32,263 nt of DNA from a virus. Shown here one piece after another: positions 1 through 32,263 of this stretch. Below the pieces are notes generated by a model. That model worked only from the letters and a program-made list of their open reading frames with translations, made no database searches and had not been told where the DNA came from. The stretch covers positions 1-32,263 of the IMG/VR virus record IMGVR_UViG_3300030061_000215; one strand, 5' to 3'. The position numbers and the translations under genes are program-made. Numbering within the stretch: position 1 is the stretch's first letter; the number at the start of each line of letters is the position of its first letter.

Positions 1-99
1 GTATCCCTTCTTTAGTTACATGAGCTAACTGACCATCTAAAGTTTCTGCTAATCCTTTTGTAAAATCCTCACCAACTTGTCTACCCATTTCATCAAATC
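1..99. repeat. Left copy of 99-bp terminal direct repeat
   Basis: These 99 bases are identical to the last 99 bases of the window (32165-32263). The reading frame of the tape-measure gene continues correctly across the join, so the sequence closes into a 32,164-bp circle. An overlap of exactly 99 is typical of a k-mer assembler closing a circular or circularly permuted genome, so it is probably not a biological terminal repeat. Confidence 0.95.
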
Positions 100-1312
100 C
101 CTCTCCTACTTTACCTAGTGTATCATTAACAATACTTTTAACGTCTCCTAGATCGCCTCTAAGAACAGCTAATATAGTTTTACCTAATCCTTTAAATAAA
201 GTTAATACTGTCTCTACACCTGTCCTAATAACATTAAACGCAGTTTTAAATACAAACATTAAAGCCTGTACTGCTCCTCTTACAATTATACTTTGATTAT
301 ATATATCAATAAAGTTATTAATAATTGCTACTAGGTTTTCCAAAACCACATCAGAATTATCGTGTATTGTTTTAGCAAGAGCAATAAAAGCTGTAATGAT
401 TAAACCTATTGGAGATATAATCATCCCTAGTACAGTAAGCATAGGACCAAATGCTGCTGCTGCAGCTACTAATGCTACTATTAATATCTTAGTATTACCA
501 TCTAAATCTCTAAATTTCTGAATAACATCACCAAAGAATTTAATTACATTTTTAATTACAGGTATTAATATATTACCAAGCTCCTCTGAGAACTCTGTAA
601 ACTGACCACCTAATCTTCTTACTTGATTAGCAAAACTACCAGAGGTTCTTAAAGCATCACCTTGAGCATCAGCAGTACCAGCAATAATAATATTTAATCT
701 AGCCTGTGCTTTCTGTGCTTCTGTAGCAGCCTTAGCTCCACCTTCTATACCCATATTAAGAAGCTCTTGATCTAGCATAGCTTGGTTTATAATAACACCA
801 AACTGCCTCATAGTTTCATGATTACCTACTATAGCAGATTGTAAAGCAGCTAACACTTCTGGCTCTGCCATATTGTTAAATGAAGCTAAGTCCATTGTCA
901 AGCCAGTTAATGCCTTAGACATTTCTAAACCCTCTTCTCTAGCAAAACCTAATGGTACAAATGTATCTTGGAAAGTAGCCATATACTTTCTAAGATCATT
1001 AGTAGATCTGCCTAGCTCACCTGCAGTTGCCTGTACGAAGTCCTCAGCATCTGCAGATAAGTTTTTAAATACGGCAGTAAATTTTGCTGCAGTTTCTTCT
1101 GCATCAGAAGCAGCATCAATAAATGACTTACCAAGCAATCCTAATGGTGCAGTAATGCCTAACGTCATCATGCTACCAACATTCCTTAAAGAAGATCCTA
1201 GACCTGCTAATTTACCCTGTATCCTTGTTAATGATCCTTCTGTTTTTTTAATAGCGTTCTGAAAGCCACTTGCATCTCCGTCAAATCTAAAGGTGAGTCT
1301 TTGTTCTGCCAT
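1..1312 (-). CDS. Tape measure protein, N-terminal part (continues at 31479-32263)
   Basis: The tape measure protein sets tail length and is extruded during DNA delivery. Read from ATG at 1312, it runs without a stop to the left edge and continues in frame at position 32164, ending at 31479, for a total of about 665 residues. This part encodes residues 1-437. It starts MAEQRLTFRFDGDASGF, followed by helical, Ala/Gly-rich sequence with early-tape-measure wording (GSSLRNVGSMMTLGITAPL). A hydrophobic stretch at about residues 270-305 could be a membrane segment. It lies directly downstream of the frameshifted tail chaperone and upstream of the tail tip gene, the standard siphovirus position. The apparent truncation is only where the circle was cut. 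At 665 residues it is short to medium for the family, implying a fairly short tail. Confidence 0.93.
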   Translation of the reverse strand, partial: MAEQRLTFRFDGDASGFQNAIKKTEGSLTRIQGKLAGLGSSLRNVGSMMTLGITAPLGLLGKSFIDAASDAEETAAKFTAVFKNLSADAEDFVQATAGELGRSTNDLRKYMATFQDTFVPLGFAREEGLEMSKALTGLTMDLASFNNMAEPEVLAALQSAIVGNHETMRQFGVIINQAMLDQELLNMGIEGGAKAATEAQKAQARLNIIIAGTADAQGDALRTSGSFANQVRRLGGQFTEFSEELGNILIPVIKNVIKFFGDVIQKFRDLDGNTKILIVALVAAAAAFGPMLTVLGMIISPIGLIITAFIALAKTIHDNSDVVLENLVAIINNFIDIYNQSIIVRGAVQALMFVFKTAFNVIRTGVETVLTLFKGLGKTILAVLRGDLGDVKSIVNDTLGKVGEGFDEMGRQVGEDFTKGLAETLDGQLAHVTKEGI

Positions 1313-1336: not shown

Positions 1337-2037
1337 TTAAACTTTCTTCCACAGTTGCTTTTTATCTGCCTCCTTAACCCTTCTCTCAAACTCTGCAAAA
1401 TCCTCATCAGAAACTTTGTTTTCTTCTATATCAATATTATCCTGTGGTAGTTTAAATAATTGATCTGGTCTCTTAGATTGATTCTTTTTAGTTATGTTCA
1501 TATTGTATATCATACACGCTAAATAACGAGTCCTTTCCCACTCTTGATTATTTACAATATGAAAATTCTCTGCTAATAGATAGCACTCTTTAAAAGTGTA
1601 TTTCCAAAAATCTTTTGGATGAATACCTATTTGACCGATATAATAATCTAGTAAATCGTCAAATGTTATTTCTTTTGATTTTTTTTTTCAGTAGCTCTTT
1701 TGATTCCAGCGTTCATAGAATTACCTAGTATTTTAGATTCAGTTAATGCCTGTATCATTTCTGTAAATTGATCTTGAGTCATAGTGTCTAACCATGATCC
1801 TACTTTAAATTTATTGTAAGATATTTCGTTACCTTCCTCTTGATCATAAGCTAATAGCCCACAATAAACAATAGCCCTTACACTACTAAGAGCCATTTCA
1901 TTTCCAAATACTTTATCTAATTCTTGTAAACTTACTCCTAACTCCTCTGTCAAAGCTGCCCAAAAATTCATAGAGAAATGGAGGGTACGTTCTTTACCCC
2001 CCAATTCTAATGAGTAGTAACCTTTAATTTTTTGCAT
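1337..2037 (-). CDS. Tail assembly chaperone, -1 frameshift fusion (lambda gpGT-like)
   Basis: A second open frame (1337-1687) follows the upstream chaperone gene, lies -1 relative to it, and has no ATG near its beginning; the first in-frame ATG is far inside. The two frames meet at a run of ten As containing the slippery heptamer A_AAA_AAA (1687 to 1681). Slippage would join 119 upstream codons to about 114 more, giving roughly 233 residues. The extension reads on as KSKEITFDDLLDYYIGQIG and ends KQLWKKV. Lambda gpG/gpGT and many siphoviruses make such a fusion from the gene pair just before the tape measure, and this pair has the same position and layout. Polymerase slippage on the A10 tract (one extra A) would give the same frame, so the mechanism is not proven. 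The hinge inferred is join(2037..1681, 1681..1337). Confidence 0.85.
1629..1688 (-). promoter_or_regulatory. Programmed -1 frameshift signal: slippery A tract plus hairpin
   Basis: On the transcript a run of ten As (1688 to 1679) gives codons GAA AAA AAA, with heptamer A_AAA_AAA at 1687-1681. Sixteen nt later there is a hairpin: ATTTGAC (1664-1658) pairs with GTCAAAT (1635-1629), extended by GAT/ATC around a one-base bulge, with a 15-nt loop. The spacer is longer than the usual 5-9 nt, so the hairpin's role is less certain than that of the slip site. Confidence 0.7.
1666..2037 (-). CDS. Tail assembly chaperone, short form (lambda gpG-like)
   Basis: This 123-residue protein is the unshifted product of the tail chaperone pair, predicted to bind the tape measure and recruit tube subunits without entering the virion. 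It begins MQKIKGYYSLELGGKERTLH and contains an acidic helical middle. The last seven residues (EKKNQKK) are encoded at and just beyond the A-rich slip site. Its size, its position between the tail tube and tape-measure genes, and the overlapping -1 frame support the call; I do not see a catalytic or metal-binding motif. The ATG at 2037 has a TAGATTTG box only 4 nt upstream. The short form should greatly outnumber the fusion if it behaves like lambda. Confidence 0.8.
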   Translation of the reverse strand: MQKIKGYYSLELGGKERTLHFSMNFWAALTEELGVSLQELDKVFGNEMALSSVRAIVYCGLLAYDQEEGNEISYNKFKVGSWLDTMTQDQFTEMIQALTESKILGNSMNAGIKRATEKKNQKK

Positions 2038-2073: not shown

Positions 2074-2514
2074 TTATGATACTGCAGCAGTAGTTATAGC
2101 TCCTGTAACAACTAATTCACCACTAAATGTTACTGGTGCTTCTGCATCAGAAGTATATTCTATACTAGATACATACACAGCAGCAGTATAGATCTTGTCT
2201 CCAGTTACATTTGTAGACCAGCTAGCATATAATTTAGATCTACCATTAGAAGATCCAATCATATAATCTAAGAAAAAGTCTACATCTACTGTATCATCAT
2301 AGGCAACCAGCCCACTAAACGACAACGAGGCTGACCTAGATCCAGCAATATGTTCAACGTAACCAGCAGAATCTTTGCTAGTTGCTTCTGGTAAATCCAT
2401 AGATACAGATAAACTAGATGACTGGCATTTTCCTACTACATTGTAAGTACCACCACTTGTAGTTGCTACTTTTAAAACTAAACTTGTTCCATTAAAAACT
2501 CCAGTTGTTGGCAT
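2074..2514 (-). CDS. Major tail (tube) protein, TP901-1 family
   Basis: This 146-residue protein is the likely subunit of the tail tube, stacked as hexamers around the tape measure. The start MPTTGVFNGTSLVLKV and the central stretch ATSKDSAGYVEHIAGSRSAS followed by LSFSG are typical of TP901-1-type major tail proteins, where a Lys/Asp-Gly-Xaa-Trp-like segment precedes a beta-sandwich. It is rich in Ser, Thr, Val and Ala, as tube proteins are. It lies two genes before the tape measure and just before the chaperone pair, as expected. The ATG at 2514 follows an AT-rich 65-bp gap with a near-match -7 box. Length is close to the family norm for small siphophages. No contractile sheath gene accompanies it. 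Confidence 0.85.
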   Translation of the reverse strand: MPTTGVFNGTSLVLKVATTSGGTYNVVGKCQSSSLSVSMDLPEATSKDSAGYVEHIAGSRSASLSFSGLVAYDDTVDVDFFLDYMIGSSNGRSKLYASWSTNVTGDKIYTAAVYVSSIEYTSDAEAPVTFSGELVVTGAITTAAVS

Positions 2515-2964: not shown

Positions 2965-5900
2965 TTAATTATTTTCTAATGCTTCTATCCTCGCTAGTAG
3001 CTCTTCATTTTGTGTTTTTAATTCTTTAATAGCAGCAGTAAGTAATGGTACTATCATACTATGATCTATTCCTTGATAGCTAGGCTTCCCATCTATTTCT
3101 GCATCTTTTTCACCACTAACAGCTTGAGGCACTACCTCTTGAGCTTCATGTGCTAAGAAACCATCTACAACTACATCTGGTGTATTTTTAAAATTAAATC
3201 TTTTAGGCTCTAAATTATCTACTCTTTCTAAAGCATTACTTAAATCTGTTATATTTTCTTTTAATCTATAATCAGAAGAAGTATTATAAGTTGTGCTACT
3301 AGATGCTGCTCTAATAGATCCTACAGCAGTTGAAGATGTAGATCCATAGAAAAACTGTATTGCAGATGGACCATATATAGTATTTACTTGATAAATGTCT
3401 AGAGAAGATGCACCAGAAGCTGTACCAGAAGTTTTAATCTCCATAGTAGGATCGCTAGTAGTACCGACATTACTGACACCCAAAGCCTTAGTTGTTCCAT
3501 CACAAGTTATAGATGAAGTAGCTGACGCTGAAATACCACCAATAACATTAACACCTGTACTTAGAGTGTGTAGTTTCTTAGAATCATTATGGAATAGATC
3601 AACTGATCCACCTTTTGTACAAGTTATATATTGTTGATTTCCAGTATATGAACGTAGATAAAGAGCAGTATCAGAACGCATCATTAAATAACCAGTACCA
3701 TTTTCTATAAATGAATTTGTACCATTATGATATATTTTAAGATCGTTACCTGTACCGAACTGAGCATATACACTATCTAAGTGCTGTGTGTTTCTAGCAA
3801 ATACTGTTTCTCCTATTCCACCATCTATATAGAAATAATTAGCTAAAGCACCAGAACCATTATCACTTTGAAAATATATGTCGCTATCATCTGCGTAGTT
3901 TCTTATATATAAATGCCCCGTGTTGTTGTTTATAAAAGAACTTGAAGCATCATGATATATTTCAAGATCACCACCTGCTCCAAACCTTGCTTTAACTTGA
4001 TCCCCGTATAAAGTATGATCATTAAAAGTAACTGTCCCTGCAAAAGTTACATTTGAAGAAGAGTCTATTGCTAAAGGTATTACACCAGAATTACCATTAC
4101 GTATATCAAAAGCACCACTTGAATTTCTTAATTGATAAACGTGAGAGCCATCATATAAATCAAACCTATCTTCAGCTCTTACTGTCCCTCCAAAAGTTGC
4201 ATTTTGAGAACCATCAAAAGTTAAAGCAGTGCCTGTAGAACTGCCATCATAATGATCTAAAATAAAATTATCACTAGCATCTCTTCTCCATCTCCAATAA
4301 TCGTTATTAGCAGCTATAGTCCAATATATTTCTGCATCATCAGCCATCACATTCATGAAATCAGTTGCTTTAACTGATGTAGCTGTTACTGCTCCTGCAA
4401 AAATTGCCCCAGTTCCATTACCTTTTATTCTAGCTGTTACAGCGTTGTTACCATCATATATTCTTAAATCTTGACTTGTTGATACTAATTTAATATCTAA
4501 ATCAGCAGAGTTTGGTTTAATTGTATTACCTATTATCTCTCCTGCAAAAGTTGTTCCAGTTGTTCTAACTACTACTTGTCCTGTAGTAGAATTTACGCCT
4601 GCTCTTAAATATAATTCATCACCATTAATATATGTTCTATAACCATCAGCATCTGCTGCATTTAAAATCATATAACGAGCTGTCTCATTAGCTTGACCTT
4701 TAGTATTCCACAAACCACCATAAGCTGTATGAATTGGATGCCTTCCTAAAACACTAGAATAAGTGTTTGTTGTTCCAAATGAATTAATGTTACCTGCAAA
4801 AGTTGCAGCTTGTGAACCAGTAAAACTTAATGCTGTCACACTACCTTGAATTAAAGATAATGTGTCTGAACCATGCGCATAACCAACCGCACCTCTATAA
4901 TGATTTGAAGCTGTACCTGATTCATCTCCAAATTGTAAAAAGTGAGATTGACCTGTTCCAGCCCATAATTGTACACCACCAGCAACTGAACCAGCAGTTC
5001 CGACACTTATTATATTTGTTCCAGCGTTTCCTACAGGCGCACTTTTTATTCCAACGTTTCCTGCAAAAGTTGCATTACCATTTTCTCTATCCAAAGTTAA
5101 TGCACTAGCACCTAGACCATAAGCATAAAAAATTAAATCACGATTTCCTCCATAATTTACTATTTGCCAGTCATTTGTAGCATTATTAGAACCTGTCTTT
5201 GAACTCATAATTATACCACCATCATTAGCAGTATTTTTACGTAGATGAAAATATCTATTAGCTGCTGAATAACCATCATTGAGATAAATATCTTGTGTTG
5301 CTACTAAAGCAGGAACTGTTACGTTGCCTGCAAAGGTTGCAGATTTATCATGATTTAATGTTAAGGATATTCCTACTCCTGTGGTAAATTCTAAATTTGC
5401 TTGGTTACCAGTTGCTGTGTTTCTAACATAACTCCAATTATTATTACTACCACTTACATTGTTTTTAATAGCTAGAGCATGACTTGGTAATTGTAATCTA
5501 GCGTTAGCTGCAGTTGCATAAGGTGTAATACCTAAAGAAGCTAAACCATCATTTCGTATAAAGAAATTAGCACCACCAGCAGCATCATATACTGCAAAAG
5601 CATAAGTAGTAGATGCGTTTGCACCACTATTATCTACTTGTAAACCATAACCACCATCTGTATAATTTTTTACTCTAGCAGTCCAATTTGTAGCTGTACC
5701 TAATATATCAAGTTTTATTGACGGATTGTCCAATCCAATTCCAACCGAACCATCACCATCAATAACTAATCTGTATGCAGTATTTGCAACATCATATATT
5801 CCAAAACCATTAACACCTAATCCTTGAGAATCTGTTTGTAATACATAATTAGCAGTAGAACCACTACCATTATCATTTTGTAATCTGATTGCTGAATTTG

Positions 5901-8900
5901 TTGTACTTGTAGATATATGAAGATTACTTTGTGGGCTTACTGTTCCAAGCCCTAAGTTATATCCAGTATTAATCCAACTGTTACCTCCTGTATCTATTCT
6001 TACATCCTCTGTTCCATCATCCATTAATGAAAATAATCCTTTATCTACAGCCGAACCAGAACCTCTAGGTATAATTCTTGCTATAGTATAATCTGCTGAC
6101 TTTACAAAGAAATCTGAGCCATCTCCTTCAACGCTTACATCTCCTGCAAAAGTTGCATTTTTATTAGTTGCTAGTGTTAAAACAGTATGCGTTAATAAAT
6201 CAGCCATAGAATTAGAATCATCATGTACCATGAACCTCATACCATTGGTTCTGTCTACAGAAATGGTAGCATTGTAATAGTTTAAATCACTAAACTCTAA
6301 TCTTGCTCCATTTGCTTGATTACCACCATTAGCAATTCTTAGTACAGAAGTTCCTGTGCCGCTTGTATTTGAGTTATAAACTCTAGATAATATTTGACCT
6401 GTGCTACTTCTAGTAACATCTACATCCCCTCCAAAAGCTGCATTACCGTCTACGTTAAGCGTACTATCTATATCAACTGTACCATAAAATTGCACAGCAG
6501 TACCATCAAATATTCGCATGTTAGAACTAGCACCACCACCAATATATAAATCATCTCCTGTGCCTGCAAAAACTGTACTTGCATTAGTACCACCATTACC
6601 TATTATTACTTGACTATCTGCATCTGGGTTTATTGTTACTTGTCCATAGAATGTTGCAGATTTATCACTTGAATCTATTTTAAAAATTACATTAGGTGTT
6701 GTAATATCTGTATGTGAAAAATATAATCTAGCAGAATCAGAACTCATAAAAAACGTAGAATCACCAGACGTACCTCTTATAAAACTTAATAGACTTTGTT
6801 GCCCTTTTAAAGCTACTTGAGCAGTTGATGTATCACCACCTCCAACACTAACTTTACCTGCAAAACTTGCAGAATTATCTCCGTTTAAAGTAAGTACAGT
6901 ACCTTGTGTTCCAGCGTTGTCAGTTTTAAACTCTATATACCCTGTGTTATTTGCTCCTGTTGTACCACCTACTATTGCTGCGTAACCACCTGCGTTATTA
7001 GTTAAATTAATAGTAGCACAAACATCAGTTGAATTATTATTAGCGTGTTTTAATTCTAAATAAGCACCAGCATCAGCAGAACCATCACTAGTTATTTTAC
7101 CACTTGCCATGTTTACTACTCCTGCAAAAGTTCCTGCACCAGCAACGTTTAGAGATGTTCCTGTATTAGCTGGATCTAAATAATAACCTGTACTATCTTT
7201 ATCTTTAAATACACCAGCGTGCATTTCGTGAGATCTAATAAAACCATTTGAATATCCAGGACTACCAGTTGAGCTGTATTCACCATAGTTTAAATTACCA
7301 CTAGCATCCATCCAAAGTGATCTTGATACTATACCTCCCCAATGGAAGTTTAAATTAGGAGCGTATTTATCAGCCGTACTACCTGTACCAATATTAGCTC
7401 TTTCTAATATACTTATAGGTGAATTTTGCCAGTCATCATTATTTGTAAGTGTTGTCTCAAAAGATGACATACCACCAGTATAAGAGTTATTTGATGTAGA
7501 TGTTATTCCACCAGTAACGTTTACACTATTGCTAAAATTAAATGAATCACTTGTTGCGTTCCATGTTATTGTAGCATCTGTAGTAGCATTTACTGCATCT
7601 TGTATTGTTATACCAGCACCATTAGCATTAGCAGATGTATCTCCAGATCCATAATTCAAAGTAATGTTTTTATCCTTAACATCTAGATTAGTAGTATCTA
7701 TAGTTGTCGTTGTGCCTTGTACTGTAAGATCGCCAGCTACTATTAAACTGTCATCTGTTTTTAAAACATTTGAAGAGTCTCTATATAAATTCGTGTCTGT
7801 ACCAAATAATATACCTTGTGTTGGAGGTGTACCTCCGTAAGATGTAGAAACCTGTATAGCTTTAGTTCTAATAAATTGAGCAGAGTTACCAGTTGTTAAA
7901 AACTGTACTCCATTAGTAGTATCTGATTTTATGTTATCAACACCAAGATAACCTGCTACGATTGTATTACCAGAAGCATCAACTTCAACTAAATCAGCAC
8001 TTGTACCAAAATTCCAAAGTCTAAACTCATTAGCATCACTAGGCACATACCATCCAAAAGAACCTTGACTATTTGTTGCTTTAAAAGCTGCTGGACCTGT
8101 CGTGCCTTCTACCTCTATTCTTGCTGTACCTGCATTGTATACGTGCAATTTTTCTTGAGGAATACCAACACCTATAGAAACTTTACCAGCAGTTATTCTC
8201 ATTCTTTCAGAGCCACCTTCGTATAGTCTAATTCCACCAGTAGCACCATCTCCAGCTCTTAATTGTAATAAACCTGCATTTCCATGTTCATTACCAGCTA
8301 AGTGAATAGAAGCCCCTCTTGTATCTGTAGCATCACCACCACCCATTATTTTTAATTGAGCATTATCAGAGCCATCAGATGTATTTGCACCAATTTTAAA
8401 ATCGGTAGAAGATCCTAAAATATTTCCTACAAAAGTTGCGTTACCAGAGCTATCAATACCTAAATGAGTAGTAGATGATGTAACATCAATAAAACTAAAA
8501 GCACCACCATCTAATAAGTCAATTCTTGATTGTATTGTACCATTTTCATCTTGGTATCTAACTTGCGATGATGCAGCGCCTTTTAAATTTACAATAGGAA
8601 TACCAGAAGCATGACTTGTTTCTAGACTAAGTAATGGTATAGAAGCGTTTGTTGAAAGTGTTAAATTATCACTATTAATAGTTACATCCCCTTCAAAAGT
8701 TGTATCAATACCATCTATATGGGCAGCTAAAACACCACTACCACTACCAGTTCTAAAGTTTATTGTTTCATCATTACCATGAGCCCAAAGTTCTAACTCT
8801 CCACCAGATAAAACGTGCATAACGCCTAGCTCAGAGCCATTATACATTCGTAAGTGTTGGGCTGTAGTTGTTATTTGTAAAGCAGCACTTGCATGAGGAG

Positions 8901-11637
8901 CACCACCTAAACCTAATCTCGTGCCTTGCATAGTATTGGTAGTCGTAGAACCTCTATCAGTTACTGTTTGTAATGTATCTTCTATAGTAGAAGTATCTAC
9001 AGATATAACTCCGTTAGCATCTGTCTTTAAATATCCTGCTCCATAATCATTAAATGTTATAACGCCATCAGTACCAACTGTCAGTTTAGTAGTGCTGCCA
9101 CTAAAACTTGTACCATAAGCAAGAGAATAGTGTTCTTGTTGATTTAAACCTGCCCACCAGAAATTAGTTCCTGTACTTTGGTTTTGATATTTTATTGCTA
9201 CTTCTTCTGTAGTGCTTGCATCAGTAGATTCTAATGTAATATATACATCGTCTGCTCCAGATATATGCAGTTGAGTATCTGGTGATGTCTCTCCAATACC
9301 CCAGTTTTGTGTACCTATGACACCTACAGTAGAACCATCTTTTAAAATATTAATAACATCACCATGAGTTGATGTTCTATTAAATTGTGCTATAATACTA
9401 TCTCTAGTAAAATTACCAACACCATTAGGATGCAGTTCAATACCTGCTGTAGATATTGATGATGATGTTTTTCCAATTAATATAGAGTTAGTTGTAGTAG
9501 CACCTCTATCTGTAACTGTTTGTAAAGTATCTTCTATAGTAGAACTATCTACAGAAACATTACCATCAGAATCAGTCTTTAAATAACCAGCACCATAAGA
9601 AGGTAATTTTATACCAGCACTTGTTGTTTGAAACTTGACAGAATTTCCTGCATACAAACTTACAGTTTGTCCACCAGTACCTGCAAAGAAAGCCATATAT
9701 TCATTACCATTAGCACTTTGTATTGAGATACCATCACTACGAAGTCTAAGTTCACCAGTACCTGTATCTGCTATATAACTATGAGAACCATCGTGATAAA
9801 TTTCTAGGTCGTATGAATTTCCAAAAAATGCTTTTACATTATCCTCGTGTTTTGTGTCTTGAGGAAAAATTGTTCTTGTGATACTACCATCTAAATAGAA
9901 ATAATTAGTTAAACCACCACTACCATTATCAGACTGAAAATATATATCACTATCATCTGCGTAGTTTCTAAAATATAAATGTCCCGTGTAGTTGTTTATG
10001 TAAGATGATGTACCACCATCATGATATATTTTTAGGTCATTACTACTACCTATTCTTAATTCTACACTATCAGATAACTTAACGTTTTTAGAAAATAGGT
10101 TTGCTTCATTACCACCATCTACAGTAAAATACGTAGCAACTCCACCACTTCCATCATCTGACTTAAATTTTATATCTCCATCGTTTTGTCTATTTTGTAA
10201 TTCTAAATCACCTGTTTCGTTTTGAATGACTGAATCAGTACCATCATGATATATTTTAAGGTCATTACTATTACCCCAGTTAGCTATAACATTATCTCTA
10301 TGACCTGTAGGTTTATAAAAAACATTTTCTCCAGATGTTCCATCTATTTCAAGATATGTAGTCATAGCACCAGAGCCATCATCTGATTTAAAAATTATAT
10401 CAGAATCATTTGCACTATTTTGTATTGTTAAATCCCCAGTTAAATTGCTTATGGTACCAGCACTACCAGAATGATGTATTCTTAAATCTGAATCACTACC
10501 AAAATCTAACCTAACATTATCATTGAGTTTTAATATTCCAGTTAATGTACCTCCAGTTGTATTTAAGTAAGTATTAGTATCTAGTATAACATCTCCATCT
10601 GCATCGGTAGTTAAAAAACCTGCTGTATAAGTAGGTAGCTTTATTCCTGCACTTGTCGTCTCAAATTGCTTAGAATTATCATAGTAGAGATCAACACTAC
10701 CATCTCTTGTAAATGTAGCTATAGTTTCATCAGCACCTGTGCGAATTTTAATAGTGGCATTAGTTACCATTTCCATACCAGCAGGTGTCCAAAAATCTAT
10801 TATATTAGTAGTAGAATTATATCTTAAATATCCATCAGCATGATCACCGATCTCAAATACAATATTATCTTTCATTCTTAGATTTCTGTAAAACTCAGTT
10901 AATCCATACCCTCCATCTACATTAAAATATGTTGTTAAACCTCCACTTTGATCATCGTTTTTAAATATTATATCATGATCTACTTTATCTTGCTCTATAA
11001 TTAAATTACCTTCATCATTATGTAAATATGTGTCTGTGCCATTATGGTATATTTGTAAATCATTACCCGTACCTATATTTAATATTTTACTATCGCCCAG
11101 TTTTACATTAGCTGTTATAGTAACATCAGTTCCATCATCTGTTATTGTAGAATCTCCTATAGTATTGCCATCTGGTGTAAACTTAGGTATAGTATTAAGT
11201 GTACCAGATCCATCTATACCAGAGATCTCACTTAAATTTACCCAGTCAGTTCCAGAGCCTGTAGAGGCTAAAACTTGTCCAGATGTACCAAATGTATTGT
11301 TGCTATCTTTAAATCCACCAGAGACGCTTATATCGCCTGTAAGGGTAAGCCCTCCACTATAGAATAATGCTTTCTGTGAACCTGCTATAGATATACCTAA
11401 CTGAGCAGAGTTAGGTGAATATAAACCAGTTGTAGTAGATCCAAATATTGCTAATGAAGGAACACTAACAGATCCTGCACCTACTAATGTTTGTGTGGTA
11501 GATAAATATAGATTAGCTTCATTACCATCACCATCACTTATCTTTTTTATTGAAGATCCTATGTTAGAATTGCCAGACACCTTGAGAAGGTAGGTGTAGG
11601 TAGAAGCAATGGTTTTCCCAGTTAATGTTACGCCCAT
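2965..11637 (-). CDS. Giant tail fibre with peptidase S74 chaperone domain
   Basis: This 2,890-residue protein takes about 27% of the genome and is probably the receptor-binding or side fibre. The C-terminal 103 residues form an intramolecular chaperone of the peptidase S74 (endosialidase) type: SSDYRLKENITDL, then GFLAHEAQEVVPQAV, then a trimeric coiled coil ending ARIEALENN. By analogy, self-cleavage should occur between Ser2788 and Asp2789, with Lys2793 as the partner residue, releasing the chaperone after trimer folding. The shaft contains seven copies of an IYHDG module and about fifteen TFAGxV repeats, all low in Cys and high in Gly, Ser, Asn and Thr, as in beta-helical fibres. The N-terminus (MGVTLTGKTIASTYTYLLKV) presumably joins the tail. 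It uses the ATG at 11637. No depolymerase active site is evident, and lack of a separate fibre chaperone fits the built-in S74 domain. Confidence 0.9.
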   Translation of the reverse strand: MGVTLTGKTIASTYTYLLKVSGNSNIGSSIKKISDGDGNEANLYLSTTQTLVGAGSVSVPSLAIFGSTTTGLYSPNSAQLGISIAGSQKALFYSGGLTLTGDISVSGGFKDSNNTFGTSGQVLASTGSGTDWVNLSEISGIDGSGTLNTIPKFTPDGNTIGDSTITDDGTDVTITANVKLGDSKILNIGTGNDLQIYHNGTDTYLHNDEGNLIIEQDKVDHDIIFKNDDQSGGLTTYFNVDGGYGLTEFYRNLRMKDNIVFEIGDHADGYLRYNSTTNIIDFWTPAGMEMVTNATIKIRTGADETIATFTRDGSVDLYYDNSKQFETTSAGIKLPTYTAGFLTTDADGDVILDTNTYLNTTGGTLTGILKLNDNVRLDFGSDSDLRIHHSGSAGTISNLTGDLTIQNSANDSDIIFKSDDGSGAMTTYLEIDGTSGENVFYKPTGHRDNVIANWGNSNDLKIYHDGTDSVIQNETGDLELQNRQNDGDIKFKSDDGSGGVATYFTVDGGNEANLFSKNVKLSDSVELRIGSSNDLKIYHDGGTSSYINNYTGHLYFRNYADDSDIYFQSDNGSGGLTNYFYLDGSITRTIFPQDTKHEDNVKAFFGNSYDLEIYHDGSHSYIADTGTGELRLRSDGISIQSANGNEYMAFFAGTGGQTVSLYAGNSVKFQTTSAGIKLPSYGAGYLKTDSDGNVSVDSSTIEDTLQTVTDRGATTTNSILIGKTSSSISTAGIELHPNGVGNFTRDSIIAQFNRTSTHGDVINILKDGSTVGVIGTQNWGIGETSPDTQLHISGADDVYITLESTDASTTEEVAIKYQNQSTGTNFWWAGLNQQEHYSLAYGTSFSGSTTKLTVGTDGVITFNDYGAGYLKTDANGVISVDTSTIEDTLQTVTDRGSTTTNTMQGTRLGLGGAPHASAALQITTTAQHLRMYNGSELGVMHVLSGGELELWAHGNDETINFRTGSGSGVLAAHIDGIDTTFEGDVTINSDNLTLSTNASIPLLSLETSHASGIPIVNLKGAASSQVRYQDENGTIQSRIDLLDGGAFSFIDVTSSTTHLGIDSSGNATFVGNILGSSTDFKIGANTSDGSDNAQLKIMGGGDATDTRGASIHLAGNEHGNAGLLQLRAGDGATGGIRLYEGGSERMRITAGKVSIGVGIPQEKLHVYNAGTARIEVEGTTGPAAFKATNSQGSFGWYVPSDANEFRLWNFGTSADLVEVDASGNTIVAGYLGVDNIKSDTTNGVQFLTTGNSAQFIRTKAIQVSTSYGGTPPTQGILFGTDTNLYRDSSNVLKTDDSLIVAGDLTVQGTTTTIDTTNLDVKDKNITLNYGSGDTSANANGAGITIQDAVNATTDATITWNATSDSFNFSNSVNVTGGITSTSNNSYTGGMSSFETTLTNNDDWQNSPISILERANIGTGSTADKYAPNLNFHWGGIVSRSLWMDASGNLNYGEYSSTGSPGYSNGFIRSHEMHAGVFKDKDSTGYYLDPANTGTSLNVAGAGTFAGVVNMASGKITSDGSADAGAYLELKHANNNSTDVCATINLTNNAGGYAAIVGGTTGANNTGYIEFKTDNAGTQGTVLTLNGDNSASFAGKVSVGGGDTSTAQVALKGQQSLLSFIRGTSGDSTFFMSSDSARLYFSHTDITTPNVIFKIDSSDKSATFYGQVTINPDADSQVIIGNGGTNASTVFAGTGDDLYIGGGASSNMRIFDGTAVQFYGTVDIDSTLNVDGNAAFGGDVDVTRSSTGQILSRVYNSNTSGTGTSVLRIANGGNQANGARLEFSDLNYYNATISVDRTNGMRFMVHDDSNSMADLLTHTVLTLATNKNATFAGDVSVEGDGSDFFVKSADYTIARIIPRGSGSAVDKGLFSLMDDGTEDVRIDTGGNSWINTGYNLGLGTVSPQSNLHISTSTTNSAIRLQNDNGSGSTANYVLQTDSQGLGVNGFGIYDVANTAYRLVIDGDGSVGIGLDNPSIKLDILGTATNWTARVKNYTDGGYGLQVDNSGANASTTYAFAVYDAAGGANFFIRNDGLASLGITPYATAANARLQLPSHALAIKNNVSGSNNNWSYVRNTATGNQANLEFTTGVGISLTLNHDKSATFAGNVTVPALVATQDIYLNDGYSAANRYFHLRKNTANDGGIIMSSKTGSNNATNDWQIVNYGGNRDLIFYAYGLGASALTLDRENGNATFAGNVGIKSAPVGNAGTNIISVGTAGSVAGGVQLWAGTGQSHFLQFGDESGTASNHYRGAVGYAHGSDTLSLIQGSVTALSFTGSQAATFAGNINSFGTTNTYSSVLGRHPIHTAYGGLWNTKGQANETARYMILNAADADGYRTYINGDELYLRAGVNSTTGQVVVRTTGTTFAGEIIGNTIKPNSADLDIKLVSTSQDLRIYDGNNAVTARIKGNGTGAIFAGAVTATSVKATDFMNVMADDAEIYWTIAANNDYWRWRRDASDNFILDHYDGSSTGTALTFDGSQNATFGGTVRAEDRFDLYDGSHVYQLRNSSGAFDIRNGNSGVIPLAIDSSSNVTFAGTVTFNDHTLYGDQVKARFGAGGDLEIYHDASSSFINNNTGHLYIRNYADDSDIYFQSDNGSGALANYFYIDGGIGETVFARNTQHLDSVYAQFGTGNDLKIYHNGTNSFIENGTGYLMMRSDTALYLRSYTGNQQYITCTKGGSVDLFHNDSKKLHTLSTGVNVIGGISASATSSITCDGTTKALGVSNVGTTSDPTMEIKTSGTASGASSLDIYQVNTIYGPSAIQFFYGSTSSTAVGSIRAASSSTTYNTSSDYRLKENITDLSNALERVDNLEPKRFNFKNTPDVVVDGFLAHEAQEVVPQAVSGEKDAEIDGKPSYQGIDHSMIVPLLTAAIKELKTQNEELLARIEALENN
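3690..3975 (-). repeat. Fibre IYHDG modules 6 and 7 (distal copies)
   Basis: Two copies of the fibre module (DLEIYHDASSSFINN and DLKIYHNGTNSFIEN) lie near the C-terminal end of the fibre. Copy 6, with the following segment NYADDSDIYFQSDNGSG, closely matches copy 4 at about 9890-10037 at both protein and DNA level, although about 6 kb separates them. Confidence 0.8.
9770..11066 (-). repeat. Fibre IYHDG module array, copies 1-5
   Basis: Five tandem-like copies of a module of about 50 codons lie in the N-terminal part of the fibre. Each contains DLxIYHxG, then a TGxL segment, then DIxFxSDDGSGG and TYFxVDGG; the fifth lacks the second half. They are spaced by roughly 200-575 nt and have diverged. 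Their purpose is probably shaft lengthening. Confidence 0.8.
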
Positions 11638-17714: not shown

Positions 17715-18572
17715 TTACTCCTTTCTGATAGCTAATGCTTGTTGCTCTGTATATTCAGTAGCTACAAAAGGTGCAGAGAAACATCTACAATTTACAATTT
17801 CTTTTGCTGCAGCTCCCATAGTCATATCACTAGGAAACATCATTTTTTGATTATTAATGCTATATGGCTCATTGAAAGGTAATATTGTACCAGAATATGC
17901 TTGATGAGCAGGTCTACCTCTATCATCCATAGTAGCTATCCATTCCTTTTGTAGCATATCTGTACCAAATATATTCTCTGCAGCTACCTTGACACCTAGA
18001 TTAGCTGCTGCCGTACTCTCTGTTCTTATAATTCTTTTAGCCATCCATCTTGCTTTGAAGTCCATATCTTTAGTTAATATCCTTACTCTATCCTCTATAC
18101 CTAACGCCATAAACTCTGGATCGTCTAGCTTTGCTTGTAGTACGGATCTTAATTCTACTAAGGCTGTATCCTGTACTGTTTTAATATTTGCTCCTGTAGC
18201 TATATAGTTTTCTTTGTCTTGAATAAACTTTTCGGTAGCATATTCTACATCTGCTTCATCTTGCTGCTTTGGTATAGACTTCACTAAATGTTTTTTGTAC
18301 CAGTTAAAATACCTTTTAGTTATATCGTTATATAACTCTAAATTAAGTTTATGTATATCCTCTTTATTGAATAACTGAGCAAAATTCTGATTATTAGGAT
18401 TCTCATCTTCTTTAAACATCTGTATAGCTTTATCAAAATTTGATTTATAAAACTTATAGACTAAAGAATTGTTTTTCTTTTGACTGTATAATAATAATTT
18501 TCTAAACTCTAGTGATAGACGTTTCTTCTGATTCTTAGTGAAGATGCTTCTTATAACTTTTGATGTAGACAT
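17715..18572 (-). CDS. Minor head protein, Mu F-like
   Basis: The 285-residue protein belongs to the phage Mu F / SPP1 gp7 minor head family, present in few copies near the portal and involved in head assembly or DNA delivery. An extended helical N-terminus carries Lys-rich stretches. The family region follows: RIIRTESTAAANLGVKVAAE, KEWIATMDDRGRPAHQAYSG, then a C-terminal EIVNCRCFSAPFV with the conserved NCRC. It overlaps the portal gene by one base (TAATG), which fits the usual portal-then-F order. Confidence 0.9.
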   Translation of the reverse strand: MSTSKVIRSIFTKNQKKRLSLEFRKLLLYSQKKNNSLVYKFYKSNFDKAIQMFKEDENPNNQNFAQLFNKEDIHKLNLELYNDITKRYFNWYKKHLVKSIPKQQDEADVEYATEKFIQDKENYIATGANIKTVQDTALVELRSVLQAKLDDPEFMALGIEDRVRILTKDMDFKARWMAKRIIRTESTAAANLGVKVAAENIFGTDMLQKEWIATMDDRGRPAHQAYSGTILPFNEPYSINNQKMMFPSDMTMGAAAKEIVNCRCFSAPFVATEYTEQQALAIRKE

Positions 18573-20869
18573 TAATTTTCATTTTTTTCAATAATACGTT
18601 TACACCAATTAGCCATAGGATCACTATCTACTCCTTTAGCTTTTATAGATCCTCCCCATAAAGCATAAGAAATATCACCACAGATAGGCTTACCTTTTTC
18701 ATCTGTGTATTTACCTGTAACATATTCATTAGCTCTAGACAGGTAGGCATAAGTCTTTTTTACTATAGATAAACTTAATCCTCTACCAGCTATAAGATCA
18801 GATGCTCTATTCTTACCAACTAAGGTTGCACAGGGATTGTTAAAAGATTCGTTAATGTCTTTTGCTCTTTTAGCATTATTTATAGCAGACTTAGGATAGT
18901 TGCTATACATTTCTTCTTTAGTTTCTTTTACTGCTTCGTTATACTCTTCATGAGTATTAAAAGGCATAAATACATCTGTGCCATCCATAGTGTGGCTATG
19001 GCTGCCAGATCCACCTAATTCTCTGGCTCTATCTTCTGCCTCTTGCTCAGTAGTATAAACATCTGTCATACCATCTACTAATCTCTTTACTATAGAATCC
19101 TCAGATGAGCTTTTTTTACTAGACATAGGATGTCCTTCTGGTAAAAGATCTGTATCGTGTTTACCACTTCTAAACTTTCCATTTCTTAGAACAAATAAAA
19201 ACGAATTTACTCTTGACATTGCCCACATCTCTGGACCAGTTACATTAGGTCTTACAGATTCTGGATTAGTTCTATATGCACCGATTCCTCTTTTATATAC
19301 TGCATATAAAGTTCTAACATTAGTTCTTTTACTAGCTACATCTCCTACCTTTTCATTATGATCGTCAGCTTTTTTTTGTAATGACTTTCTTAGGGTAGCA
19401 CTCATTTCCTGCTTTTCTTCCTCTTCTCTTACTTCTTCTATTTCCTCTTCATCTACTATTTCTGGCTCTTCATTAGCATCTGCCTCAGCTCTTTCTGGCT
19501 TAGGAGGGAAAGATAAATCATCACTTACTGACATATCTAAATCTGAAATTGCAACAAAACCACTAGGCACTAACATATCATCTGCTATTGGCATATCATC
19601 CATTATACCATATCCTACAGCCTCTCTCTTTTCATTAGTAGTAAGCCAATAAGACTTAGATAGATTATCTACTAATTGTTGCTGCTCTGGCATAAGCTCT
19701 GGTATTACAGTATAGTCAAAATCAAAATATAGATCTTCACCAAACTGTGGTACTAGCCATCTATTAAATTCATCTCTTATTCTATTAAGCTCTGGAATGA
19801 CAGCATTAGTAAACATTACCTTTCTGGCTGTTCTATAATTATCGTAAGTGCTAGAATCAGTATTATTTAATAATTGTATTGGCACACCATAGACATTTGC
19901 AAGATCAGCAATAGATGCTTGATAAGTTTCTAATAATTGTAAATCTGTACTGTTTAATCCAAAATTAACCCAGCTAAACTTCTTACCAGTAATCATCACT
20001 TTATTAGCATTTGCAGATCCACCAAAGTTTCTTTGCATAGCATCGCTTAATTGTTGTGCCTGTGTAGGTGTCAAAGAATCATCATCTGGTACAAGCATAC
20101 CTTTTGCAGTCTGATTATGTAAATATTTTAGCTGTGTTTCTATAGCTTCATTGTTAGTAGCTAATACTCTCATAGCAGCTTTTATAGGGCTTTGACCATA
20201 TAAGTGTGATCCTTGACCTGTAGAATAGTCTGGATTCCAATCTGCAATATGTAATACTTCACTAGCATCTAGATCATATTGTTGCTTTCTATACTGCATA
20301 ACATATTTATCTACTGGCTTAAATATTCCTGCAGATTTAATTTCTATAAGGTGTGCTGGTAGATTATATAATTGTTGTACTACTCTATCTTTTCTAGTGT
20401 TAGGGTAAATACCATAGACATATCTGTTACCTGTTAGCTTACCAAATCCAATCATCTCAGCTAAGAATGTAGAAAAGCTCTGAGTAGGATTAGGCGTTTC
20501 TAATAGTTTCTGTAATCCAGTATTTTCTATTTCTTCAAAAGTAGATTTACGCAATAGCTTAGATTGTAATAAAGACTCTTGATTTAAGCCATTAGTAGTT
20601 AAAGATTTATATTCCTTGAAAGCACCATTATCTACTTTCTTATAGATCTTAAATGGTACTGAGGTAGATGACTGAATAATAAGATTTATGATGCTATAAA
20701 TACTTGTATTGTGTGAGTATCCTTTTTTGATGTAATCATCATCATAAACATTGTTAGAAATTATGTTATCTCCCAGAAAACTGTATATGAATTTGTTGTA
20801 TGATTCTGCTGTTACATTTGTGTTAAACGCCTTAATACTATTTCTGATTCTATCTAAAAAGCTCGCCAT
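18572..20869 (-). CDS. Portal protein with large C-terminal extension
   Basis: The first 450 residues are an HK97-type portal: NTSIYSIINLIIQSSTSVPF, LLETPNPTQSFSTFLAEMIG, TGNRYVYGI, SEVLHIADWNPDY, LYGQSPIKAAMRVL, ADLANVYGVPIQLLNN and FNRWLVPQFGEDLYFDFDYT. The portal dodecamer at one vertex is the DNA entry and exit gate. After an acidic linker (about 455-490) come about 280 more residues. One segment reads YAVYKRGIGAYRTNP plus EMWAMSRVNSFL (521-558), another GSHSHTMDGTDVFMPFNTHEEY (622-643), and a final one has NAKRAKDINES, RASDLIAGRGLSLSIVKKTY and CGDISYALWGG (664-740). I recall such segments as add-on modules in other phage head proteins, but cannot name their function. The protein is far longer than a typical portal of 400-500 residues. 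Confidence 0.92.
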   Translation of the reverse strand: MASFLDRIRNSIKAFNTNVTAESYNKFIYSFLGDNIISNNVYDDDYIKKGYSHNTSIYSIINLIIQSSTSVPFKIYKKVDNGAFKEYKSLTTNGLNQESLLQSKLLRKSTFEEIENTGLQKLLETPNPTQSFSTFLAEMIGFGKLTGNRYVYGIYPNTRKDRVVQQLYNLPAHLIEIKSAGIFKPVDKYVMQYRKQQYDLDASEVLHIADWNPDYSTGQGSHLYGQSPIKAAMRVLATNNEAIETQLKYLHNQTAKGMLVPDDDSLTPTQAQQLSDAMQRNFGGSANANKVMITGKKFSWVNFGLNSTDLQLLETYQASIADLANVYGVPIQLLNNTDSSTYDNYRTARKVMFTNAVIPELNRIRDEFNRWLVPQFGEDLYFDFDYTVIPELMPEQQQLVDNLSKSYWLTTNEKREAVGYGIMDDMPIADDMLVPSGFVAISDLDMSVSDDLSFPPKPERAEADANEEPEIVDEEEIEEVREEEEKQEMSATLRKSLQKKADDHNEKVGDVASKRTNVRTLYAVYKRGIGAYRTNPESVRPNVTGPEMWAMSRVNSFLFVLRNGKFRSGKHDTDLLPEGHPMSSKKSSSEDSIVKRLVDGMTDVYTTEQEAEDRARELGGSGSHSHTMDGTDVFMPFNTHEEYNEAVKETKEEMYSNYPKSAINNAKRAKDINESFNNPCATLVGKNRASDLIAGRGLSLSIVKKTYAYLSRANEYVTGKYTDEKGKPICGDISYALWGGSIKAKGVDSDPMANWCKRIIEKNEN

Positions 20870-29344: not shown

Positions 29345-31479
29345 TCTTCTGGTTTAAATTTATAAAAGTTTCTGAGAGTTGTTAAATCGCTTGAGCTGGT
29401 CAAGTTACTTTGGCTAGGTGTATGTGTAATAATTTTATATCTATTTGTTTTAACATCAAAAGAAAGACCATCTATAGCTAATCTATTATTAATTGATTGT
29501 ACAGTAGTAAAGTTTAACTTAGGTAATGTTAAAAGATCTATAGGCGTTACAGTCTCATCTAAATTACCAGATCCATCATTATCAGATAGCTTTCTTACTG
29601 TACCCTGTACTCTGTCATTATTCTCTGACATATCATTTAATCTTTTCATTCCCATTAACTCTTCTAAGTTAAAATCTACATTAGCTCCATATTCTTGGTA
29701 TTTACTTATTGCTACACCATTTGAATCTACTAAGCAATTTACATAAGCATCATCACCTAACTGTCCAAATCTAATGTCCATAGCAGGCAACACCCCACTA
29801 TTATTTTTAAGAGTTGCTTTGTTTATTTCTACTTTTGTAGAATGAAATTCTTTTTCATCATCTACTGTGAATTTAACATCATCATAATACAATCTAAAAT
29901 TAGCATCATTATGTACAGCCTCATGAGGTTTATACCAATCTATTGTTATAGTTCCAGACGAAGGCTGTGTTAAATTAAATTCATATACTACCCACTCTTC
30001 TTGTATTGCACCTAATGTTGTATTAATTGTACTATTTGTAGTCCACCTATCATTATTAACATCCCAGTAAAATCCACCTACTTTTAATCTCCATCTTATA
30101 CTGTAAGCTAAAAGCCCAGATCTATCTGGAGCATTAGCATAAACTGCAAAACTAAACTTCATTGGCGTACCATTAGGAGAGTCGCTATTACCTGTATTAT
30201 TAGTAGCTATAGGAGATGCTGGTGTACTTGATACACTACCTATATTTAATAAAGAATAAACACCACTATAAGGAGATATACCATACACAATAACAGGATT
30301 TTGTGATGTGTCTACACTACTAGAGCTTACACAGTATGTAACGCTATAATCAGTTACAGTCCAGTTATCTGGTTTGAATCCCCATGTAGGAACGCCACCA
30401 GTACCTTGAGCTGCAACAAATTCAAAAGTGCCATTATTAAATTCATTTCTATACAGATCTTTTACTCTTATATTTGATCTGTGCCTTACACATGGTCTTT
30501 TAATAATCTTCATAAGATCATTATTCATAGGCATTATAGTATCTGGATCACCTGTACTATTTATATTTTGTACAGGATCAGTAATAGAATATGTACTTTG
30601 ATTAGCACCATTTTTATCGTAGGTAATAAAGTTTTTACCTGTGCCACTAAATGTAGACAATGACAAAGCATCTAAAGATACAATAGTCCATTGTCCGTTG
30701 TGCTGAAAGATCCTACAGTTAAACATCATCAACAATGATTCTAATATTGTCTTACAATCTACAGCATTACCATTCTCATCTTTCATAGCATCTTTACTCA
30801 TAATAAAAGATTCTGTATAGGGATTAGTATAATCGGTAGAATTTTTTGGTGTTATTCTAGTTAGAAACTTATATCCAAAATCTAAAGAATTTCCAGACGT
30901 ACCCTCGTTATCTTGTATGTTAATATTTTTTAAACATTCTCTCATAGCTTCAAAAGCATTAGGCTGCTCTGTACTACCACCATAATTATAACCATTTATA
31001 GTACCTATTAAATCAGAAGCATAAAAAGAAATCTTATAAGGAAATACTTTAAATGGTCTTTGGTACTCATCTTGTACAACAAATCCTCTCCAGTAAGTTG
31101 AATAGGTAGGAGATGCCTCAGTACCACCAGTTCTATATTCTACAGTTATCCTCCATTGTCTATCATGATCTGGCTGCATAAAAGATATAGCATCTGCATC
31201 CCAAGTGTAAAATGTTTGATCCTCCCAGTTACCTACATTTTCATCTTGCCACTCACTAGATCCATATTCGGATTCTACATAAAGCTCAATCTTACAACTT
31301 GATCCTATTATAGGATTAAAAAAATCGTCATTAGATTGCCACTCTATATTTATTGGATTATCCCCTAAAATAATATTATCATATACTGTACCAGAATAAT
31401 TTTCTTTTGCTATTGATAAACGCCATTGATGTAGATCTACGTCTTTAAAAGGTATTACATATTTATCTCCGTATGCCAT
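29341..31479 (-). CDS. Putative tail tip / hub protein
   Basis: The 712-residue protein is rich in beta-type, Asn, Ser, Thr and aromatic sequence, beginning MAYGDKYVIPFKDVDLHQWR and ending TTLRNFYKFKPED. The N-terminal part, with YSGTVYDNIILGDNPINIEW and FFNPIIGSSCKIELYV, resembles tail hub and distal tail proteins, where a strand-rich domain closes the tube. A stretch at about residues 390-560 (GISPYSGVYSLLN and a later RWRLKVGG) looks like a carbohydrate-binding-type beta-sandwich insertion. It directly follows the tape measure with a one-base overlap, the classic tail tip position, and is the last gene of the late block. No peptidase or lysozyme motif was found. Confidence 0.7.
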   Translation of the reverse strand: MAYGDKYVIPFKDVDLHQWRLSIAKENYSGTVYDNIILGDNPINIEWQSNDDFFNPIIGSSCKIELYVESEYGSSEWQDENVGNWEDQTFYTWDADAISFMQPDHDRQWRITVEYRTGGTEASPTYSTYWRGFVVQDEYQRPFKVFPYKISFYASDLIGTINGYNYGGSTEQPNAFEAMRECLKNINIQDNEGTSGNSLDFGYKFLTRITPKNSTDYTNPYTESFIMSKDAMKDENGNAVDCKTILESLLMMFNCRIFQHNGQWTIVSLDALSLSTFSGTGKNFITYDKNGANQSTYSITDPVQNINSTGDPDTIMPMNNDLMKIIKRPCVRHRSNIRVKDLYRNEFNNGTFEFVAAQGTGGVPTWGFKPDNWTVTDYSVTYCVSSSSVDTSQNPVIVYGISPYSGVYSLLNIGSVSSTPASPIATNNTGNSDSPNGTPMKFSFAVYANAPDRSGLLAYSIRWRLKVGGFYWDVNNDRWTTNSTINTTLGAIQEEWVVYEFNLTQPSSGTITIDWYKPHEAVHNDANFRLYYDDVKFTVDDEKEFHSTKVEINKATLKNNSGVLPAMDIRFGQLGDDAYVNCLVDSNGVAISKYQEYGANVDFNLEELMGMKRLNDMSENNDRVQGTVRKLSDNDGSGNLDETVTPIDLLTLPKLNFTTVQSINNRLAIDGLSFDVKTNRYKIITHTPSQSNLTSSSDLTTLRNFYKFKPED

Positions 31480-32263
31480 TATGATAATATTCTATTCTTG
31501 AAATTACCAGCTCTATCTAATGCTAGTATAAGATCCTGTCCTCGTAATACAAACTCACCTTTAGTTGCTCCCATGCCTCCTAAGCGATCTAAAGGCACTA
31601 CAGCTTCTGGACCTGCCTCACCTATCAATGCGAGAGTAGGTCCTAAAACCACGCCACCCTCTGCCATTGCAGGAACTTGTAGACCTCCTTCTGCAGCTCC
31701 AGCCATACTCTTTTTTAATGAGGATGATATTGCTACCAATGCAACCCCAGCAGCAATTAAAGCTATAGCAGCAGGACCAGATACTTTTTTTAATGCTTCA
31801 ACAAATGCTAATTGAGCAACTCCAAATTGGATAAACATTTTACCAAGATCTCCTAAGAAACTTACAACCATCTTTGTAAAACTAGCAAACACGCTTTTGC
31901 CCTCACCAATAGCTGTTCCTATGCTTTCAAAAAATCCTCCTATAGCACCCTCTAAAACCCCAGAATATTTTTCACCAAAATCTTCTGAAACTTTTTCTAC
32001 TACCTCAGTAGTTTTGTTACCCATATCTTCACCTGCTACAGTAATGTTTTCAGATCCTTTTTTTATTGCATCTGAAATACTAGCTGGTATTTCAAATCCA
32101 AATGCTTTAGCTTTTTCTATAATAAAATTTTTTACATTATCTATACCTTGACTAATACCATTTTGTATCCCTTCTTTAGTTACATGAGCTAACTGACCAT
32201 CTAAAGTTTCTGCTAATCCTTTTGTAAAATCCTCACCAACTTGTCTACCCATTTCATCAAATC
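31479..32263 (-). CDS. Tape measure protein, C-terminal part (continues from 1)
   Basis: This is the remainder of the tape measure, encoding residues of roughly 405-665, in frame with the N-terminal part across the join. It has helical and hydrophobic stretches (GGFFESIGTAIGEGKSVFAS; GPAAIALIAAGVALVAISSS) and a closing region AEGGVVLGPTLALIGEAGPE then AVVPLDRL. That closing phrase is a well-known C-terminal signature of phage tape measures. It ends at the TAA at 31479-31481 with a one-base overlap with the tail tip gene. Bases 32165-32263 duplicate the first 99 bases of the window and should be counted once. Confidence 0.93.
   Translation of the reverse strand, partial: FDEMGRQVGEDFTKGLAETLDGQLAHVTKEGIQNGISQGIDNVKNFIIEKAKAFGFEIPASISDAIKKGSENITVAGEDMGNKTTEVVEKVSEDFGEKYSGVLEGAIGGFFESIGTAIGEGKSVFASFTKMVVSFLGDLGKMFIQFGVAQLAFVEALKKVSGPAAIALIAAGVALVAISSSLKKSMAGAAEGGLQVPAMAEGGVVLGPTLALIGEAGPEAVVPLDRLGGMGATKGEFVLRGQDLILALDRAGNFKNRILS
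32165..32263. repeat. Right copy of 99-bp terminal direct repeat
   Basis: Identical to bases 1-99; see that entry. On the circular map these 99 bases occur once. Confidence 0.95.

Follow-up and report, generated by a model that had tools for sequence, protein, structure and literature searches.

A marine phage very probably makes two versions, a long and a short one, of a tail-building helper protein from a single gene. Its DNA, referred to below as the window, is the whole 32,263-base stretch analysed (virus record IMGVR_UViG_3300030061_000215, 32.6% GC). The best explanation is a chaperone pair of the λ G/GT kind, in which the long form would be reached by -1 recoding on a run of ten As (A10) with no stimulatory hairpin; on comparative grounds, we put the probability of this reading at about 0.88. 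Such recoding is ordinary in kind and, in the window, well supported. Most translation would yield G alone (123 aa); in a minority of cases, a slip on the A10 run would move reading into the -1 frame and the product would be a G-T fusion (about 233 aa). If the family behaves as λ does, G would coat the tape measure protein and T would recruit the major tail protein. The slippery run itself, without a stimulatory hairpin, would drive the recoding, with polymerase slippage (A10 to A11) probably having a share no smaller than that of ribosomal -1 slippage.

The tail genes are on the minus strand, in the order major tail protein, G, T and tape measure, and their relevant features are:

2074..2514, minus strand: major tail protein gene, the upstream neighbour of G (Phage_tail_2, 9.5e-15).
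1666..2037, minus strand: G ORF, short form of the tail assembly chaperone, 123 aa (phrog_2115).
1679..1688, minus strand: A10 run, the putative slip site; the homologous run is A9 or A10 in 28 of 90 clusters.
1681..1687 (read 1687-1681), minus strand: in-phase heptamer A_AAA_AAA.
1678-1684 (read 1684-1678), minus strand: second in-phase heptamer, A_AAA_AAT.
1337..1687, minus strand: T, an open frame in the -1 phase and the C-terminal part of the predicted G-T fusion (about 233 aa); matches phrog_16333 (5e-11) and is conserved in 90 clusters.
1511..1513 (read 1513-1511), minus strand: earliest ATG of the T frame; translation from it would leave out the most conserved half of T.
1629..1664 (arms 1658-1664 and 1629-1635), minus strand: ATTTGAC/GTCAAAT hairpin with a 22-nt loop, starting 16 nt past the first heptamer.
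2..1312, resuming at 31479-32261 across the 99-bp terminal repeat, minus strand: tape measure protein gene, the downstream neighbour of T (PHROG tape measure families).

The 3' end of G reads ...ACT GAA AAA AAA AAT CAA AAG AAA TAA, and the predicted fusion junction is ...RATEKK|KSKEITFDDLL.... From 1687 the T frame is open to a stop at 1339-1337, with no ATG, GTG or TTG until the ATG at 1513-1511. A preliminary description of this DNA had placed a ten-A run holding A_AAA_AAA at the end of G, and an ATG-less -1 frame running to 1337 ahead of the tape measure; all of these are present at the positions it gave, and the next gene is the one at 2-1312. By itself, the A10 run is unremarkable at this base composition, one being seen in the window against 0.6 expected.

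Relatives were gathered from viral contigs in seven scans and from genome contigs in one, which together gave 483 loci encoding both halves. These fall into 90 sequence clusters, and clusters are the better count since some contigs were taken in more than once. Each of the later scans reported more than 530 relatives, nearly all on uncultured contigs. T is at -1 and overlaps the end of G in all 483 loci, and the overlap contains an in-phase X_XXY_YYZ in 481 of them, or 89 of the 90 clusters. Chance expectations for the heptamer rest on the first 52 of the 90 clusters: 51 of these have it, against 6.7 expected from its rate elsewhere in G, and 500 shuffles of the tail codons gave a mean of 18.9 clusters with a heptamer and a maximum of 29. 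The sole cluster without an in-phase heptamer (L107 and L322, which are the same contig) reads GAA GAA GCA AAG TAG, with T still at -1. The most conserved stretch of T, DYYIGQxGIxPxxFW..., precedes the first ATG of the window's T frame, and in the T core the pooled within-cluster differences at codon positions 1, 2 and 3 number 478, 239 and 1433. The comparison indicates that T is a genuine coding sequence, made fused to G. Because the -1 frame and the heptamer are conserved, and T is conserved upstream of its first ATG, it appears near certain that -1 recoding at the window's A10 run is what gives access to T. The earlier proposal of λ G/GT-type -1 recoding in a tail assembly chaperone thus finds strong comparative support in the relatives.

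The sites themselves are of several types. By cluster (n = 90), 52 have G_GGA_AAG/C, 28 have runs of A9-A10, nine have A6-A7 sites and one has none. On the protein tree these types need 14-15 changes, of which well-supported branches alone force six for the poly(A) type. The window lies inside a well-supported group of seven clusters, every one of them poly(A). Differing lysine tRNAs between hosts could also shift site preference.

The length of the poly(A) runs bears on how the frame is changed. Thirty clusters have sites with at least seven As; the run is A9 or A10 in 28 of these, A7 in two and A8 in none. Resampling of flanking codons gives expected frequencies of 0.32, 0.28, 0.24 and 0.10 for runs of 7, 8, 9 and 10, and an expected A9-A10 share of about 0.34, against the 28 of 30 clusters seen. 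With as few as six independent origins, the probability of all being A9-A10 is about 0.0015. For a ribosomal A_AAA_AAA site seven As are enough, yet the runs are almost always nine or ten and never eight, and for this reason we read the pattern as selection acting on run length at poly(A) sites. Many genomes show selection against such runs from nine As upwards (PMC1088944), and in tested cassettes slippage efficiency rises with the length of the A run (PMC3711429). The window, with its A10, has the homopolymer of about eight or more that is expected for poly(A) realignment. The preliminary description noted that transcriptional slippage is possible at an all-A site, and this point gains strength from the homologous poly(A) runs, nearly all A9-A10 and lacking the stem, described below, of the G_GGA_AAG sites.

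Polymerase slippage may be the main route at the window's site, a claim to which we give just under even odds from these comparisons. Against it, the frame is always -1 in the window's family, though polymerase slippage would tolerate others. In addition, the run holds both A_AAA_AAA and A_AAA_AAT in phase, and ribosomal sites are clearly in use among close members of the family. The same heptamers lend weight to a different account, in which the ribosome alone slips by -1 on the A10 run, unassisted and with no polymerase slippage. The ribosomal heptamers of the relatives are in the same place. In λ, gpG attaches to the tape measure protein, recruitment of the tail tube protein falls to the T part of gpGT, and gpG and gpGT are made in a ratio of 30:1 (PMC5009743); a fusion of a few percent, as in λ, may need no stimulator. 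The excess length of the runs over the seven As that a ribosome needs is what counts against this account, which we regard as about as likely as polymerase slippage, at somewhat less than an even chance. Slippage of the ribosome by -1 and translation of A11 transcripts give the identical fusion peptide, so mass spectrometry would prove the fusion and not the mechanism.

The G_GGA_AAG sites differ from the poly(A) sites in what follows them. Most have a stem whose 5' arm begins 5-6 nt past the heptamer and whose 3' arm is formed by the GQVG codons of T (e.g. AGTYGGC). All seven pairs, with G-U allowed, form at an offset of 5 or 6 in 38 of 51 G_GGA_AAG sites, whereas none of the poly(A) clusters forms all seven at any offset from 0 to 11. 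Pair changes on both sides of the stem number 13 against 3.7 in shuffled sequences, and 15 against 4.1, in two gapless alignments; none of 500 shuffles reaches these values, although the shuffles overstate the significance, since the structure was derived from the same sequences and these are related. When the stem partner is slid by 1-3 columns, the covariation signal is mostly gone. Loci L158, L167, L297, L263 and L475, together with other G_GGA_AAG loci (alignments A8 and A9), have a covarying stem of at least 7 bp. The stem of this class is a good candidate for a stimulatory hairpin.

Folding energies separate the classes in the same manner. In windows running from the heptamer to GQxG, the mean z is -2.49 for G_GGA_AAG, -1.75 for A6-A7 and -0.62 for A9-A10 sites, and in flanking controls for the two main classes z lies between -0.3 and -0.7. 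GC-matched subsets agree with the class difference, and GC content does not account for it. In the structure scan, 60-nt windows gave a strong difference between the classes and 50-nt windows gave none, because the latter cut off the 3' arm. The windows from heptamer to GQxG, which are defined by the anatomy of the site, were picked after the first results; with them the difference was restored, and the upstream and downstream controls were near background. A phylogenetically paired test of stem against run did not reach significance in any form. The site types clump on the tree, leaving five well-supported independent pairs. About two of these bear on the stem, and both agree with expectation; with a looser energy threshold the directions were mixed. 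So small a number of phylogenetically independent contrasts on the association of stem and run falls short of proof and weighs against the run as the driver of recoding.

These comparisons permit a tentative reading, which we hold at somewhat under an even chance: one family would produce the same fusion at two levels, by a heptamer with a hairpin in some members and by the polymerase on bare A9-A10 runs in others, the window included, with several switches between them. The known parallel is dnaX, which uses ribosomal frameshifting in E. coli and transcriptional slippage in Thermus (PMC1088944). As with dnaX, homologous genes may reach the same products by heptamer and hairpin or by a bare A run; unlike dnaX, the case of the window is a phage tail gene and is drawn from comparison alone. 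Poly(A) transcriptional realignment is described for Thermus thermophilus dnaX (A9; PMC1088944) and Citrobacter rodentium tssM1 (A11; PMC4256274). The window resembles both in having at least nine As, no recognisable stimulatory structure and a longer protein, here predicted, from the shifted frame. It differs from both in that its run holds in-phase ribosomal heptamers and that the frame in its family is always -1. If the two-level reading is true, the family would be a natural experiment on how slippage by the ribosome and slippage by the polymerase stand in for one another with no change in the products. What deserves specialist attention in the comparison is the division between heptamers assisted by a hairpin and bare A9-A10 runs. 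Among the titles and abstracts listed in full-text searches of open-access papers, there was no direct precedent for such a frameshift in Flavobacterium phages, nor for transcriptional slippage in tail genes.

The window has a hairpin of its own, and ribosomal -1 frameshifting on A_AAA_AAA assisted by the ATTTGAC/GTCAAAT stem would be the classical arrangement: the heptamer is in phase, a perfect 7-bp stem follows, and the G_GGA_AAG relatives do have a covarying stem downstream. However, the window's stem is at the level of shuffled sequence, 32 of 200 shuffles folding as well, and z over the matched stretch is -0.8. It begins 16 nt past the heptamer instead of 5-6, and its register differs from that of the stem conserved in the G_GGA_AAG relatives; in the place of that conserved stem, the longest stem in the window is 5 bp. 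The geometry reported in the preliminary description, a perfect 7-bp hairpin 16 nt after the heptamer, is correct, but the stimulatory role suggested by it is not supported by these results. The hairpin is probably a chance feature without function, and we consider hairpin-assisted frameshifting in the window unlikely.

It is very improbable that T stands as a gene of its own, initiated separately from G. Homologues of that kind were met in none of the 483 loci, the sole exceptions being annotations in distant Cellulophaga phages. The annotated T ORF of phi12:1, phi12:3, phi18:1 and phi18:2 begins at an ATG of its own, upstream of an A9 run, and T is at +1. No ATG, GTG or TTG precedes the conserved core in the window, and there is no common start before it in 66 of the 80 clusters in which the core motif was located. 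In phi17:1, which also carries a distant T relative, the run is A10 and T is at -1. A poly(A) run at which the frame direction varies points to polymerase slippage (PMC3711429), and the +1/-1 difference among the Cellulophaga phages is a possible parallel, although sequencing error or independent initiation would look the same. The Cellulophaga loci (L088, L089, L487, L488 and L489) differ among themselves by one A, and public annotation gives the halves as separate hypothetical proteins. Least probable of all, to a degree that we consider negligible, is that the frame change reflects a broken gene or an artefact of sequencing or assembly at the A10 run. Long homopolymers are error-prone on some sequencers, but the same frame relation is found in 483 loci, many of them G_GGA_AAG homologues without a long run, which largely refutes such an error, and contig L001 (G 92% identical at the protein level) has the same A10.

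The λ G/GT frameshift, to which we return as the model for the window, is of the -1 type (Xu, Hendrix, Duda 2004, as cited in PMC3711429; reviewed in PMC5009743). The window shares with it the gene order, the -1 overlap at the end of G, the in-phase heptamer and a T lacking a start. Many of the window's relatives carry GGGAAAG, listed as highly shift-prone in E. coli (PMC5009743), whereas the window itself uses A10. Neither half is recognisably λ-like in these searches, and G lies closer to the TAC_11/GTA-gp10 group. Its match to phrog_2115 (tail protein) is at 2.1e-10, and that to Phage_TAC_11/GTA-gp10 falls below the curated cut-off. Foldseek of the G model against solved structures found nothing. 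Against predicted viral proteins, the AlphaFold model of G (mean pLDDT 80) gave matches, several of which carry the annotation of a tail assembly chaperone or tail tube protein. With phrog_2115 and these predicted-structure matches, the family of G is assigned as tail assembly chaperone. The family that T matches, phrog_16333, is of unknown function. A0A516LHD1, a predicted viral protein of 58 aa, is 100% identical to T across the aligned stretch; it is about as long as a product begun at the internal ATG would be, in keeping with a near relative whose T had been annotated in truncated form. Automatic annotation likely misses the T half in this family, or trims T to an internal ATG. A large phage family, known almost wholly from uncultured contigs, joins the group with λ G/GT recoding.

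With G as the query, tblastn found no cultured phage, and with T it found Cellulophaga phages only, at 29% identity. The genome-contig scan met relatives on two contigs only, both from metagenome-assembled genomes, and therefore gives no host link. The best terminase matches among those listed are Bacteroides and Phocaeicola phages (about 34%), and the host of the window's phage is on this account likely to be in Bacteroidota.

The ends of the record, 1-99 and 32165-32263, are identical over 99 bp, and the record probably represents a whole genome, circular or circularly permuted, whose tape measure gene is divided between the two ends. Rfam and tRNA scans of the whole window gave no matches. 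The window also encodes a Phage_capsid-family capsid, a portal and a Mu F-like protein. The portal protein (18572-20869) has a long C-terminal extension past the Phage_portal domain, with weak matches to DUF5824 and DUF3721 under their cut-offs. Between the tail genes and a putative holin, an ORF of 2890 aa (2965-11637) ends in a Peptidase_S74 intramolecular chaperone domain; it is probably a receptor-binding fibre.
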